NCBI GenBank assembly: GCA_007693385.1
Contig: REDR01000123.1
Coordinates: forward strand, 186,001 to 250,000
Length of the DNA: 64,000 nt
Direction: 5' to 3'
DNA from: Anaerolineaceae bacterium
Lineage (GTDB): Bacteria > Chloroflexota > Anaerolineae > Aggregatilineales > Phototrophicaceae
Positions 32,224 through 42,139 of the stretch are shown piece after piece. Every line of letters begins with the position of its first letter. The first letter of the stretch is position 1. The notes beneath the pieces are model-generated. The model did no database searches and was not told the origin of the DNA. It worked only from the letters and a program-made list of their open reading frames with translations. A program made the translations under genes and the position numbers.

Positions 32224-32300
32224 TGGTCGGGGTACTCGGATTCGAACCGAGGACCTCTTGCACCCCATGCAAGCGCGCTACCGGGCTGCGCCATACCCCG
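32224..32300 (-). tRNA. tRNA-Pro (anticodon GGG)
   Basis: Minus-strand tRNA of 77 nt including an encoded CCA (32226-32224). The acceptor stem is CGGGGTA with TACCCCG. The anticodon stem CTTGC/GCAAG encloses the loop ATGGGGT with anticodon GGG. The T-arm is CTCGG-TTCGAAT-CCGAG, and the discriminator is A. All four arms fold. Confidence 0.93.
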
Positions 32301-32342: not shown

Positions 32343-32370
32343 GACTGGAAAGAAGAAGGGAGTTAGCCGA

Positions 32371-33426
32371 ATGGCAAGCGATAGACACGAAGTCCGCTTG
32401 ACGACGTTGGCTACGTGTGCCGGCTGAGCGTCTAAGCTCGATCCGAGCAGTTTGGCGCAAGTTTTGCGCCCGTTAGCAGATACATTTCCACAGGCAAATA
32501 ATCCCGACTTACTGGTTGGGCTAGGCACACCGGATGATGCGGCGGTCTATCGCCTCAACGATTCGCAGGCGATTGTCTCCACTGTTGATTTCTTCCCGCC
32601 GGTAGTTGATGATCCGTATGATTTCGGCGCGATTGCGGCGGCTAATGCGTTGAGTGATGTCTATGCGATGGGCGGCGAGCCATTGATGGCGATCAATCTC
32701 GTCGCATTCCCCGATAATCTACCCACATCCATCCTGACTGCGATCTTACAGGGCGGGGCGGATAAAGTGCGCGAGGCGGGCGCGGTGCTGGCTGGCGGCC
32801 ATACCGTGACCGATAAAGAACCGAAATACGGCCTCGCGGTTACCGGCATCGTCAATCCGCATCATATCTTATATAAAGGCGGTGCGCGTCCGGGTGATCG
32901 CTTGCTATTGACCAAGCCGCTAGGAATTGGCGTGCTGACCACCGCACTCAAGCGCGATATCGCAACCGCAGAACAAATCGACGGGGCGGTGTCAGTAATG
33001 GCGCATCTTAACCGCACCGCATCAGTTATCGCTCGCGAGCACAAGGTGAATGCGATGACCGACATCACCGGCTACGGCCTGCTCGGTCATGCGCATGAAA
33101 TCGCGGCGGCCAGCCGGTGCGACCTTGTGCTATTTGCGGAGGCGATGCAATGGCTCAGTGGGGCAGAAGATCATGCGCTTGAAGATGTTTTCGCGGGCGG
33201 GATGTGGCGCAATCGACAACATTATGAGCAGTGGGTCAGCTTTGCGTCCGGCGTGCCGGAGCATGTGCGCGGTCTGCTGTTTGATCCACAGACCAGCGGC
33301 GGCCTGTTAATGGCGGTCAGCGCGGATGACGCCGATACGCTCTTATCGCGCTTGATAGATGCGGGGGAATCGGCTTTTGTCATTGGCGAAGCTCGTGACG
33401 GCGACGGTGTTTTGCGTGTCGAATAA
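32371..33426 (+). CDS. selD: Selenide, water dikinase SelD, itself a selenoprotein (in-frame UGA = Sec19)
   Basis: Makes selenophosphate, the Se donor for selenocysteine and selenouridine. The ATG at 32371 has AAGGGAG upstream. The reading frame is open except for TGA at 32425-32427. It falls exactly at the catalytic Cys/Sec position of SelD: LTTLATCAG-U-ASKL, with the essential Lys three residues on (Lys22). With readthrough the protein has 351 residues, normal for SelD; a plain ORF starts only at 32452 and lacks the active site. Downstream motifs fit: GTPDDAAVY, STVDFFPP, AAANALSDVYAMGG, DITGYGLLGH, DPQTSGGLL. A SECIS-like hairpin lies at 32454-32470. Confidence 0.93.
32454..32470 (+). promoter_or_regulatory. 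Bacterial SECIS element candidate in selD mRNA
   Basis: GGCGCAA (32454-32460), loop GTT, TTGCGCC (32464-32470): a perfect 7-bp stem with a loop starting in G. The loop begins 33 nt after the UGA at 32425-32427. The described bacterial SECIS model asks for a small apical loop with G in its first two positions, 16-37 nt after the UGA, so this fits. SelB would bind it to insert Sec. Confidence 0.65.
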
Positions 33427-36338: not shown

Positions 36339-37121
36339 ATGGGTGTGACACTAGAAATCCAGAACTTACATGCGAAGGTTGACGGCGAGGACATCAGCAT
36401 TCTTCGCGGTGTAAATTTGACCATCAAACAGGGTGAAGTTCATGCAATGATGGGGCCGAACGGTTCCGGCAAAAGCACACTAGCTAACGTGCTGATGGGC
36501 AACCCTGCCTACGAAATCACCGAAGGCGATATTCTGCTAGACGGTGAGAGTATTCTGGAAATGGAGCCGGATGAGCGTAGCCGTGCCGGTCTTTTTCTGG
36601 CATTCCAGTATCCGGTAGCGATTCCCGGAGTCACGGTGGCGAACTTCCTGCGTCACGCGATTAACGCTCGCATGAAGGAACAAGACCCCGAAAGCAAAGG
36701 TATCTCGATTCCAGCATTCCGCAAGATGATGATGGAAAAGATGGGCAAGTTAGAAATGGACTCCAGCTTCGCTGGTCGCTACCTGAATGACGGCTTTAGC
36801 GGTGGCGAGAAGAAACGCGCCGAAATTCTGCAGATGGCGGTACTTGAACCGGCCATCGCTATTCTGGACGAGACGGATAGCGGCCTCGACATTGACGCGC
36901 TCCGTATCGTAGCGGAAGGGGTGGCGATGCTCAAAGGGCCGAATCTCGGCACTCTGGTGATTACACACTATCAGCGCATCCTCAACTACATCAAGCCAGA
37001 CCACGTTCACATCATGTTTGGTGGCCGCGTTGCGGAAAGCGGCGGTGCTGAGCTGGCGTTGCGTCTGGAAGAGCAGGGCTACGATTGGGTGCGTGAGAAA
37101 TATGGTGAACCTGTAAGCTAA
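36339..37121 (+). CDS. sufC: Fe-S assembly ATPase SufC
   Basis: A 260-residue ABC-type ATPase of the SufBCD scaffold, cytoplasmic. Walker A is GPNGSGKST, signature FSGGEKKRAEILQ, Walker B AILDETDSGLD with the SufC-typical insertion after the Q-loop (LFLAFQYPVAIPGV). The AGGAGG-like site just upstream supports the start. It is the first gene of the operon and 33 bp ahead of sufB. Substrate: it drives conformational change in SufB-SufD for cluster assembly. Confidence 0.96.
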   Translation: MGVTLEIQNLHAKVDGEDISILRGVNLTIKQGEVHAMMGPNGSGKSTLANVLMGNPAYEITEGDILLDGESILEMEPDERSRAGLFLAFQYPVAIPGVTVANFLRHAINARMKEQDPESKGISIPAFRKMMMEKMGKLEMDSSFAGRYLNDGFSGGEKKRAEILQMAVLEPAIAILDETDSGLDIDALRIVAEGVAMLKGPNLGTLVITHYQRILNYIKPDHVHIMFGGRVAESGGAELALRLEEQGYDWVREKYGEPVS

Positions 37122-37154
37122 GTCGATTTTATTGAGAGAGGATTACGTAACGTT

Positions 37155-38609
37155 ATGGCCGAGTATATTCCCAGCGATAAGCAGTTAACGGAAGAAGAAA
37201 CCTCATTGCGCGACGTTCGCGCCAATTATGATAACACGTACGGGTTTCATGATGATGACGTGAAATATAGCTTCATCAGCAAGCCCGGCATCAATGCCGA
37301 AATGGTGCGTCAGATCAGCGAGATGAAGGGTGAGCCGGAGTGGATGACTGAGATCCGCTTACGTGCCTATGAGCATTTCGCCGAGCGCCAGACTCCACAA
37401 TGGGGCGGAGGCGGCCTACTCGATGAGATCGACTACGATAGCATTTTCTACTATGTCCGCGCCACCGATAAATCCGAGCGTGACTGGGACGATGTGCCGC
37501 CGGAGATCAAAGACACATTTGATCGTCTCGGTATCCCGGAGGCGGAAGCCAAGTTCTTGCAGGGCGTTTCCGCGCAGTATGACTCCGAGTCGGTATATCA
37601 CAACATTCGTAAAGACCTCGAAGATAAGGGCGTTATCTTCATGGATATGGATAACGCTTTGCGTGAGCATCCGGACATCGTGCGTGAATACTTCGGCACG
37701 ATCATCCCCCACAATGATAATAAGTTCGCCGCGCTGAATACCGCGGTCTGGTCGGGTGGTTCATTCATCTATGTGCCGCCGGGCGTCCATGTGGAGATGC
37801 CGCTACAGGCTTACTTCCGCATCAACACGCAGAACATGGGGCAGTTCGAGCGCACGCTCATCATCGTTGATGAAGACGCTTTCGTCCATTATGTTGAAGG
37901 CTGTACCGCGCCGACGTATAGCTCCGACAGCCTGCATAGCGCTGTGGTGGAGATTATCGTCAGGGAAGGTGGCCGTTGTCGCTATACCACCATCCAGAAC
38001 TGGTCGAACAACGTCTACAATCTGGTGACGAAGCGGGCGGTGGCTGATAAAAACGCCACGATGGAATGGGTGGACGCTAATCTCGGTAGTAAGCTGACCA
38101 TGAAATATCCGGCGGTCATCTTGCGTGGTGAAGGTGCTCATGGTGAGGTGCTGTCTATCGCGTTTGCCGGCAAAGGTCAGCATCAGGACGCTGGCGCCAA
38201 GATCACCCATCTCGCGCCGAACACCACCAGCCAGATCATCAGCAAATCCATCAGCAAGGACGGCGGGCGTTCCAGCTATCGCGGCTTGCTGAAGATCGCG
38301 GAAGACGCGCCACATTGCAAGAGCAATGTCGTGTGTGATGCGCTGTTGCTAGACGATCAGAGCCGCTCCGACACATACCCGTACATCGAAGTTGACTCCA
38401 AAGATGTGACGATGGGACATGAAGCATCGGTCAGCAAGATTGGCGAGGATCAGCTATTTTATCTGATGAGTCGCGGCCTGAGTGAAGACGAGGCGAACGC
38501 GATGGTGGTCAATGGCTTCCTCGAACCGCTAGTCAAAGAATTACCGATGGAATATGCGCTAGAGATGAATCGCTTGCTACAGATTCAGCTCGAAGGCTCA
38601 ATCGGTTAA
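37155..38609 (+). CDS. sufB: Fe-S assembly scaffold SufB
   Basis: A 484-residue scaffold subunit where clusters form. The SufB hallmarks are visible: an N-terminal helical part, then the right-handed beta-helix with [20 protein letters not shown] and YVEGCTAP (a conserved Cys), [21 protein letters not shown] and the C-terminal [20 protein letters not shown]. Length is typical. It lies between sufC and sufD, with an intercistronic hairpin after it. Confidence 0.96.
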
Positions 38610-38628
38610 TATAGAAGAGAAAAATATC

Positions 38629-38650
38629 GGGCGGCGGCCTGCCGTCGCCC
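38629..38650 (+). other. Intercistronic hairpin between sufB and sufD
   Basis: GGGCGGCGG (38629-38637), loop CCTG, CCGTCGCCC (38642-38650): 9 bp with one G-T pair. No T-run follows, so it is more likely an mRNA processing or stability element than a terminator. Confidence 0.6.
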
Positions 38651-38682
38651 ATATCCGATATAACAACAAAGGAGAAATATCT

Positions 38683-40023
38683 GTGGCCGTTGCAATCCGG
38701 CGCCGCAGTTCAGCGCCAACAGCCCCCAGCTATACGCTTGAGGATGTCAGGGCGCTGAGCGAGGCGCACAATGAACCCGACTGGCTCCGCACGGCACGCG
38801 AGTCCGCGTGGGAGCTATATGAAGATCTACCGATGCCGACGTTGCAAGACGAAGAATGGCGTCGTACCGATTACAGCCGCATTCGCTGGGATGAGGCCGA
38901 TAAGCTGGTTCAAGCGAACGGCGCGAAGGCTGATGTCGTACCGGAGGCCAACCGCGAGCCGCTAGTTGGCGAGGCCGAAGGCGGCACGATGATCTTCGTC
39001 GATGGCGGACTGGTTCATTACACGTTCTCGGAAGAACTGAAGTCACAAGGCATCATCTTCACTGATTTGCGGACTGCCGCCATCGAACATCCGGAACTGG
39101 TGCGCGAAAACATGATGATGAAGGCCGTCAAGCCAACCGACGGCAAATTCGCCGCGCTTCATGCCGCTATGTGGACGCACGGTGTTTTCCTGCATGTGCC
39201 GCGCAATCGCGCAATCGAGCAACCCTTCCATGTGGTCATGTACAACACCAGACCAGGCGCGACGATGGGGCATGTGCTGGCGGTGATCGAAGAGAACGCA
39301 CAGGCATTGATGCAGGTTGAGTATGCGTCGGCTTCTGCGGAACAACAATCGGTATATATCGGCGCGACAGAACTGCTGGTCGGTGAAGCCGCTAACTTCC
39401 GCTACGTGGCGATCCAAGACTGGAACCGCAATACATACGAGTTCAGCCACCAACGGGCGCGTGTCGGCAAAAATGCCACGTTAGACTGGATTAACGGCAC
39501 GATGGGTTCGCAATTGACCAAAGCCTATCTTGAGATGGAATTGGACGGGTACGGCTGTAATGCACGTATGAGTGCATTCTTCTTCGCCGACAAGGATCAA
39601 CATTTTGATCTGGATACACAGCAGAATCACAATGCTCCGCTCACCACATCCGATCTGTTGTTCAAGGGTGCGGCAAAAGATGTAGCGCGTACCGTCTGGC
39701 AGGGCATGATTAAGTCACTGCCGCAGATGCAGAAGATCGACGGTTTTCAGGCGTGCCGCAATCTGGTCTTGAGCGAAGATGCACGCATGGACGGCATCCC
39801 GGGTCTGGAGATCGAAGCTGACGATGTGATCTGTTCGCACGCGGCCACGTTCGGCACGCTGGAAGAAGAGCCTATTTTTTACCTGATGAGTCGCGGCATT
39901 TCCCGTCCTGAGGCTGAATTGATGGTGATTGAAGGCTTCTTCGACGAGTTACTAGACCGCATCCCATTTGAGCGCGTCCGCGAACGTCTGATGCAGTCCA
40001 TCGAAGCCAAGATTTTGAGTTAG
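38683..40023 (+). CDS. sufD: Fe-S assembly protein SufD
   Basis: 446 residues, GTG start with GGAG upstream (AAAGGAGAAA). Partner of SufB in the SufBC2D complex, needed for iron entry. The beta-helix core has KFAALHAAMWTHGVFLHVPRN, and HAATFGTLEEEPIFYLMSRG, close to the family's conserved His-containing C-terminal segment. Paralogous in layout to SufB. It ends 31 bp before a strong terminator that separates it from sufS. Confidence 0.94.
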   Translation: MAVAIRRRSSAPTAPSYTLEDVRALSEAHNEPDWLRTARESAWELYEDLPMPTLQDEEWRRTDYSRIRWDEADKLVQANGAKADVVPEANREPLVGEAEGGTMIFVDGGLVHYTFSEELKSQGIIFTDLRTAAIEHPELVRENMMMKAVKPTDGKFAALHAAMWTHGVFLHVPRNRAIEQPFHVVMYNTRPGATMGHVLAVIEENAQALMQVEYASASAEQQSVYIGATELLVGEAANFRYVAIQDWNRNTYEFSHQRARVGKNATLDWINGTMGSQLTKAYLEMELDGYGCNARMSAFFFADKDQHFDLDTQQNHNAPLTTSDLLFKGAAKDVARTVWQGMIKSLPQMQKIDGFQACRNLVLSEDARMDGIPGLEIEADDVICSHAATFGTLEEEPIFYLMSRGISRPEAELMVIEGFFDELLDRIPFERVRERLMQSIEAKILS

Positions 40024-40051
40024 CTTGAAATAGCTGTTAGACTTGAGAAAT

Positions 40052-40086
40052 AGGGCGCGTTGAGGATATGACTAACGCGCCTTTTT
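40052..40086 (+). terminator. Intrinsic terminator (attenuator) between sufD and sufS
   Basis: GGCGCGTT (40054-40061) pairs with AACGCGCC (40074-40081), stem extendable to about 10 bp, 12-nt loop, then TTTTT (40082-40086). It is 31 bp after the sufD stop and 20 bp before the sufS ATG. Transcription into sufS must read through it unless an unseen promoter exists. Confidence 0.8.
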
Positions 40087-40105
40087 GCTACCTGAGGAGG
40101 CTTAA

Positions 40106-41335
40106 ATGTCAAACTATGATGTAGATGCCATCCGCGCCGATTTCCCGATCCTGCATCAGGAACACAGCCCGGGTAAGCCGTTGATTTATCTCGACAACGG
40201 CGCTTCCAGTCAGCGTCCGGAAGCAGTTATCGAGAGCATGAACGACTATTATCGTCGCTATCATGCCAATGTGCATCGCGGCATCCATAAGCTAAGCGCG
40301 GAGGCGACAGACGCTTACGAACGGGTGCGCGGCAAGGTGCAACGCTTCATCAATGCTGAACGTGAACAAGAGATCGTATTTACCAGAGGCACGACAGAAG
40401 CGGTAAACCTCGTCATGCAGACGTGGGGGCGACAGAACATCGGCGCGGGTGATGTCATCATCGCTACCGTGATGGAGCATCACGCCAACATCGTCCCGTG
40501 GCAGATGCTAGCGGCGGAGAAAGGTTGCACCATTCGCTATCTGTCAGTCCTGGATGATGGTTCGCTGAACATGGCGCAGTTGGATGAATGGCTGGCAACC
40601 GAATCCGTGAAGCTGGTGACGGTGATCCATACCTCCAACACGCTAGGCACGATTAATCCGGTCGCGGAGATAACACGTAAAGCGCACGATTCCGGCGCGC
40701 TGATTCTGGTTGACGCCGCGCAGAGTGTTCCCCACATGCCGGTTGATGTGCAGAGCCTAAACATTGATTTTCTGGTATTCAGTGGGCATAAGATGTGCGG
40801 GCCAACGGGTGTTGGGGTTCTATACGCGAAATACGATCTGCTGGAAGCGATGCCGCCTTTCATGGGTGGTGGCGACATGATCGAGCGCGTCACACTGGAA
40901 GGTAGCACATGGAACGAAGTGCCGCATAAATTTGAAGCGGGTACACCGTCTATTGCTGAAGTTATTGGACTAGGCGCGGCGGTTGACTATCTGGAACACA
41001 TCGGCATGACGAGCATCCACGAGCATGAATTACAGATTGTGAATTATGCTTACGGGCAAATCAGCCAGATGGACGGTGTGCAGGTCTATGGCGGCGCGGA
41101 TCGCGGCGGGTTAATCTCGTTTAACATCAATGGTTTGCACGCGCATGACGTGGCGCAAATTCTGGATAGTGAAGGGGTTGCCGTGCGTTCCGGCCATCAC
41201 TGCACCCAGCCCTTGCATGATGCGCTGGGGATTTCTGCGTCGGCGCGGGCGAGCTTTTACCTGTATAATACCCGCGAAGAAGTTGACGTGTGGCTTTCCG
41301 CCGTAGAGAAGGCGCGTCGCGTGTTTGCGAGGTGA
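40106..41335 (+). CDS. sufS: Cysteine desulfurase SufS
   Basis: A 409-residue PLP enzyme that releases sulfur from cysteine as a persulfide. PLP Lys229 is in FSGHKMCGPTG. The active-site Cys366 is in RSGHHCTQPLH, the group II (SufS/CsdA) pattern. The N-terminus has the typical PLIYLDNGASSQRP, and FEAGTPSIAEVIGLGAA fits too. The ATG follows GAGGAGG. It is 5 bp ahead of sufE. It receives desulfurase-stimulating contact from SufE. Confidence 0.96.
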   Translation: MSNYDVDAIRADFPILHQEHSPGKPLIYLDNGASSQRPEAVIESMNDYYRRYHANVHRGIHKLSAEATDAYERVRGKVQRFINAEREQEIVFTRGTTEAVNLVMQTWGRQNIGAGDVIIATVMEHHANIVPWQMLAAEKGCTIRYLSVLDDGSLNMAQLDEWLATESVKLVTVIHTSNTLGTINPVAEITRKAHDSGALILVDAAQSVPHMPVDVQSLNIDFLVFSGHKMCGPTGVGVLYAKYDLLEAMPPFMGGGDMIERVTLEGSTWNEVPHKFEAGTPSIAEVIGLGAAVDYLEHIGMTSIHEHELQIVNYAYGQISQMDGVQVYGGADRGGLISFNINGLHAHDVAQILDSEGVAVRSGHHCTQPLHDALGISASARASFYLYNTREEVDVWLSAVEKARRVFAR

Positions 41336-41340
41336 TAACG

Positions 41341-41808
41341 ATGGACGAACGTTTACAAGAGACAAAATCATTTCTAGACGAGGTGCAGGAATTATTCGCA
41401 TTTCTGGATAACCGCATGGACAAGTTGCAGACGCTATCCGAATATGGCGATGAACTAGCACCAATGGACGATGAATTGCGCCGTCAGGAATATCTGGTGC
41501 CCGGTTGTGCCTCAGCGACGTATGTCATCCTGCAAGTTGATGATGCAGAACGGGCGCACTTCATCACCGACTCCGAGTCGTTGATGTCCAAGGGGTATCT
41601 GTATATTTTGACGCGGGCATTGGATGGTTGTACGGTGGAGCAGATCGCCAAAGACGCCGAACCGATTGTGATGGGCTTCGCGCAGGGTGCGGAAGTCAGC
41701 AGACTGGGCACGACACAATCGCGGGCGAATGCTTTTGTCAACATCTACAACTTCATGCGTCGTCAGGCGATAGCTTATCTAGCGCAATTGAATCAAGAGA
41801 GAGAATAG
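41341..41808 (+). CDS. sufE: Sulfur acceptor protein SufE
   Basis: 155 residues. YLVPGCASATYVIL contains the acceptor Cys56, which takes persulfide from SufS and hands it to SufB. The family-typical LQTLSEYGDELAPMDDELRR precedes it. The start at 41341 is six bases after the sufS stop; longer frames overlap sufS. It is one base before the Rieske gene. SufU-type zinc ligands are absent, so SufE rather than SufU. Confidence 0.92.
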   Translation: MDERLQETKSFLDEVQELFAFLDNRMDKLQTLSEYGDELAPMDDELRRQEYLVPGCASATYVILQVDDAERAHFITDSESLMSKGYLYILTRALDGCTVEQIAKDAEPIVMGFAQGAEVSRLGTTQSRANAFVNIYNFMRRQAIAYLAQLNQERE

Positions 41809-41809
41809 C

Positions 41810-42139
41810 ATGTCGGATTTTATCACCATCGGTACTCTCGATGAACTATCGCCGGGCGGAGAACCTATCGTCGTAGACATTAATCGGCGCTGGGTAGCGG
41901 TCTATAACATAGACGGCAATTACTACGCCATTGAGGATCGCTGTACACACGATGACGGCCCGCTAGCAGAAGGCGAGTTGAATGGTTGCATTGTCACATG
42001 TCCGCGTCATGGGGCGCGGTTCGATGTGACCAGTGGCGAAGCATTATCCGGCCCGGCTGGGACGATTAATGTGCCCACTTACGATGTGCGCGTCGTTGGC
42101 GATGAAATACAGATCAGTACAAAGCGCAAGACATCATGA
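41810..42139 (+). CDS. Rieske-type [2Fe-2S] ferredoxin
   Basis: 109 residues with the two Rieske pairs: RCTHDDGPL (Cys-x-His) and CPRHGARFD (Cys-x-x-His). It resembles the small ferredoxin subunit of non-heme iron oxygenases. It lies one base after sufE and overlaps the phosphodiesterase by 4 bp (ATGA). A role as electron donor to Suf assembly has been suggested for such genes in suf operons by context only; no reductase or oxygenase is nearby. Confidence 0.9.
   Translation: MSDFITIGTLDELSPGGEPIVVDINRRWVAVYNIDGNYYAIEDRCTHDDGPLAEGELNGCIVTCPRHGARFDVTSGEALSGPAGTINVPTYDVRVVGDEIQISTKRKTS

Follow-up and report, generated by a model that had tools for sequence, protein, structure and literature searches.

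Cys17 and Lys20 of E. coli SelD are required for activity, as is established for the SelD family. Cys is not the only residue encoded at the catalytic position, since a survey of prokaryotes found Sec there in 19% of SelD genes (PMC4561486), and Sec-SelD is a known bacterial selenoprotein (PMC1794560, PMC4561486, PMC13188914). Catalogues have included it since 2006 or earlier, and among prokaryotic selenoproteins only one is more widespread. Sec-SelD, or SPS2 (TIGR00476), is described by a Sec in an N-terminal loop, a Lys that follows it, AIRS and AIRS_C domains and an in-frame SECIS. Gene callers are known to clip selenoprotein genes, a recognised difficulty in annotation (PMC4561486).

Here we describe a selD gene in a 64-kb stretch of DNA (the window, C101:186001-250000) from the draft genome of a Chloroflexota bacterium, 3.59 Mb in size and 97% complete. 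The gene shares all the traits of Sec-SelD listed above and departs from them in details only, namely a CxxU motif and a Ser at the position of E. coli Cys19. Its product belongs to the same enzyme family as the Cys-SelD of E. coli (PDB 3u0o), with which it aligns almost end to end (249 bits), but it has Sec where the E. coli protein has Cys17. We conclude that selD almost certainly encodes a SelD whose catalytic Sec is specified by UGA, the function being assigned from the family and the Sec reading resting on the frame, the SECIS, the decoding machinery, conservation and covariation. The features of the locus are as follows.

32356..32362 (+), ribosome-binding site AAGGGAG, 8 nt 5' of the ATG, read directly in the sequence
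32371..33426 (+), selD coding sequence translated with TGA as U, 351 residues, Sec at 19, TAA stop included
32425..32427 (+), in-frame UGA, the Sec codon of the catalytic site CAG-U-ASK, which in the alignment falls on Cys17 of the E. coli protein
32434..32436 (+), codon of the catalytic Lys22 (E. coli Lys20), from translation and alignment to E. coli SelD
32452..33426 (+), fragment from a TTG start without Sec19 and Lys22, output of the stop-aware ORF finder
32454..32470 (+), bacterial SECIS hairpin within the coding frame, 7 bp with loop GUU (or 6 bp with loop AGUUU), from fold, covariation and genome-specific rarity

The selD reading frame and its in-frame UGA

The original prediction, made from the letters alone, had placed an in-frame TGA at the catalytic Cys/Sec position of SelD, 54 nt after an ATG with a good ribosome site, and this is what we found. 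Codon 19 of selD is TGA, and the protein reads MASDRHEVRLTTLATCAG-UGA-ASKLDPSSLAQVLRPL... from the ATG at 32371 to a TAA that ends at 33426; 5' of the ATG the reading frame is closed by a stop. Residue 19 aligns with Cys17 and Lys22 with Lys20 of the E. coli protein, so that a Sec at the catalytic position (U19) is followed by a Lys three residues on (K22). Read with TGA as Sec, the 351-residue protein matches Pfam AIRS/AIRS_C and scores 384 bits against NCBIfam TIGR00476 (cut-off 125), from profile position 1. The prediction had also stated that without readthrough the frame would start at 32452 and lose the catalytic residue and Lys22. Indeed a 324-aa fragment from that TTG is all that a stop-aware ORF finder gives for selD, and its match to TIGR00476 (357 bits) begins only at profile position 22.

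The active site at 32416-32427 reads C-A-G-U (C16-A-G-U19), a CxxU motif in which C16 and U19 are a possible selenylsulfide pair. CxxU occurs in about 5.6% of single-domain Sec-SelDs of the GOS ocean survey (PMC2398784). It is present in 41 of the 65 UGA selD genes of our genome_contigs set and, being so common there, is a feature of the host lineage.

Immediately 5' of selD lies a divergent tRNA-Pro (GGG) gene on the minus strand (32224-32300), and a search for terminators around selD gave none. Shortly 3', at 36339-42139 of the window, is a SUF-type iron-sulfur assembly cluster, whose products we take from their translations to be SufC-, SufB-, SufD-, SufS- and SufU-like proteins and a Rieske-type ferredoxin. 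SufS-type cysteine desulfurases are among the proposed selenium donors of SelD.

A SECIS hairpin downstream of the UGA

The hairpin GGCGCAA-GUU-UUGCGCC, with arms at 32454-32460 and 32464-32470, has its first base at +27 from the UGA. Published rules for bacterial SECIS elements give a loop of 3-9 nt, a stem of 4-16 bp and a spacing of 16-37 nt, together with a G in the first two loop positions and an MFE of <= -7.5 kcal/mol (PMC13188914, Fig. 2). The selD hairpin passes all of them, with a 3-nt loop GUU, 7 bp, 33 nt from UGA to loop and a core energy of -9.6 kcal/mol, bearing out the geometry that had been predicted for it. To see how rare such a structure is in this genome we took about 121 kb of it, both strands included, and scanned its 4585 TGAs for hairpins with an AGUU loop, at least 5 bp and a spacing of 16-37 nt. 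Four of the 4585 were followed by one in range, and the selD hairpin was the only one of these in an open frame.

Pairing in the hairpin has been kept by compensatory change. We aligned 77 distinct UGA-containing selD segments without gaps. Of the hairpin cells 85.7% are paired, and all seven pairs show two-sided changes; these occur in 45 cells, whereas shuffling gives a mean of 12 and 0 of 500 shuffles came as high. More cells are paired in the true register than in any slid one; sliding lowers all measures except the number of pair types, which is tied at -2 and +2. At the last pair, Gln CAA occurs with Leu TTG (A-U) in 21 sequences and CAG with CTG (G-C) in 36, so the synonymous choices of the Gln and Leu codons are made together. 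We also resampled synonymous codons from each gene's own usage. The UGA genes have 6.09 pairs per gene versus 4.51 after resampling (0 of 2000 as high), whereas the 7 distinct Cys genes have 4.14 versus 3.52, which is not clearly above expectation (113 of 2000 as high). The hairpin is thus under selection in UGA genes and not detectably so in Cys genes. RNAalifold gave no consensus structure on the selD alignment, although the counts for this named hairpin are strong, and the region folded as a single sequence is only mildly unusual (z = -1.5 versus shuffles).

A second small hairpin, GCUCG-AUC-CGAGC, lies between the UGA and the SECIS (window 32436-32448) and possibly belongs to an extended SECIS. 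In many relatives this interval holds another hairpin (GGNCC...GGNCC).

Sec and Cys at the catalytic codon of relatives

An alignment of SelDs having Sec with those having Cys had been proposed as a check. Among 79 aligned selD loci of the genome_contigs set, UGA stands where homologues have Sec or Cys: 72 have TGA at the codon, 6 have TGC or TGT, and one (L067) was off by one codon, a misregistration that on inspection is also TGA. In the GTDB same-family set the SelD N-terminus could be read in 70 genomes, the window's own included; the codon is TGA in 67 and Cys in 3. TGA is found at this codon in other phyla too. SelB accompanies the UGA, being encoded in 66 of the 67 TGA genomes and 1 of the 3 Cys genomes (Fisher p ~0.004, by hand from the final table of 70 genomes; the scripted value on the first 56 genomes was p = 0.006). 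The one UGA-SelD genome with no selB match (G046) is 85% complete, and an incomplete assembly can explain the absence. The Cys genome with selB (G050, locus L111) has retained the decoding system after its SelD went to Cys.

Six changes are needed to account for the seven Cys rows on a protein tree, and well-supported branches force every one of them; this fits repeated Sec-to-Cys conversion. Such conversion of SelD has been reported before (PMC1794560).

These comparisons bear on two other readings of the TGA. The first is that it truly terminates and that the functional protein is a shortened SelD starting at TTG 32452, which would still score as a SelD in the profile search. That protein would have neither the catalytic residue nor Lys22, RLTTLATCAG before the TGA and ASK after it are conserved in its frame among relatives, and a covarying hairpin would be left without purpose, so we give this reading almost no credence. 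The second is that a Cys codon was misread as TGA in sequencing or assembly, or that a nonsense mutation arose recently in a decaying pseudogene. Cys codons in close relatives combined with a sequencing error had been named as evidence against the original prediction, and a few relatives do carry TGC or TGT. They are, however, a scattered minority, TGA being the rule across the family and present beyond its phylum; the 324 residues 3' of the TGA are intact, and the selection on the hairpin in UGA genes also speaks against error or decay. We consider error or decay extremely improbable.

Selenium use in the host genome

The prediction that the organism should encode selA, selB and tRNA-Sec outside the window was borne out for all three. 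A profile search of the genome found selA on C41 (542 bits) and selB at C101:151314-153140 (354.6 bits, cut-off 242), about 33 kb before the window. The best match for tRNA-Sec is on C6 (70.7 bits), where ARAGORN calls a tRNA-Sec with anticodon TCA (UCA). None of selA, selB and selC lies within the 64-kb window, and an Rfam search of the selB locus found nothing. It could still be argued that UGA is read genome-wide as Trp or another residue, or that readthrough is plainly leaky, as an open frame alone does not tell which residue is inserted. Yet TGA terminates 8 of the 42 long ORFs of the window, the aligned codon in the relatives examined is only ever TGA, TGC or TGT, and dedicated Sec machinery and a SECIS are present, leaving this reading with next to no probability. 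Overall, we regard an error in sequencing, a pseudogene and a reassignment of TGA as excluded or very unlikely.

Formate dehydrogenase alpha (FdhA; 95.4 bits versus 666) and selenouridine synthase (SelU; 22.6 bits versus 219.75) are both below their cut-offs in the host genome. According to an earlier rule every Sec user without FdhA has a Sec-SelD (PMC1794560), which the host genome fits. Most such Sec users had selenouridine (PMC1794560); the host, unlike them, appears to be without it, and the absence of selenouridine in Chloroflexi has been remarked upon (PMC1794560).

With neither SelU nor FdhA, a SelD that was the sole selenoprotein would form a loop without output. This possibility is ruled out by at least two further UGA genes, found outside the window in family searches that read through stops.

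C101:119255-119797 (minus), SelL-related peroxiredoxin, HFG-U-PFC (L138)
C112:24092-24313 (minus), SelW-like protein, YCGP-U (L141)

These are redox proteins (NCBIfam NF040769 and TIGR02174) with no part in selenium activation, whereas SelD activates selenium. Their hairpins are UUGCUC-AGUUG-GAGCAA, 25 nt after the UGA of the SelL-like gene, and CCGUC-AGUUU-GGCGG, 21 nt after that of the SelW-like gene. Drawn with a 5-nt loop the selD hairpin is GGCGCA-AGUUU-UGCGCC, so that an AGUU apex is common to all three. Since such hairpins follow so few TGAs of this genome, the three UGA genes share one SelB-type signal. Relatives of the SelL-like gene have an internal TGA in 14 genomes, 13 with selB and one without; in the 4 genomes where the gene has no stop selB was not found. 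A search for CMD/AhpD found nothing, and a UGSC family search gave no match, nor did its controls.

From what is known of these protein families we infer the following course. SelB carrying Sec-tRNA-Sec would bind the in-frame hairpin, whose loop lies 33 nt 3' of the UGA, and deliver Sec there, competing with release factor 2. The full-length SelD would convert selenide and ATP to selenophosphate, with which SelA would turn Ser-tRNA-Sec into Sec-tRNA-Sec. Selenophosphate would in this way feed back on the synthesis of SelD itself and of the other UGA-encoded redox proteins, at least two in number. One may speculate further, though we think it rather unlikely, that the lineage, having neither formate dehydrogenase nor selenouridine, retains Sec decoding solely for small redox selenoproteins, that C-x-x-Sec acts as a selenylsulfide switch, and that SelD activity and its UGA-dependent synthesis form a positive feedback loop gated by selenium and redox state.

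Our work is mainly a matter of annotation: it corrects that of selD and leaves the known picture of selenium biology unchanged. The host uses Sec in three or more UGA-encoded proteins, and its SelL-like and SelW-like genes would suffer the same clipping as selD. The related genomes, 67 with Sec and 3 with Cys and with repeated switches on the tree, constitute a set for studying the exchange of Sec for Cys on loss of decoding.
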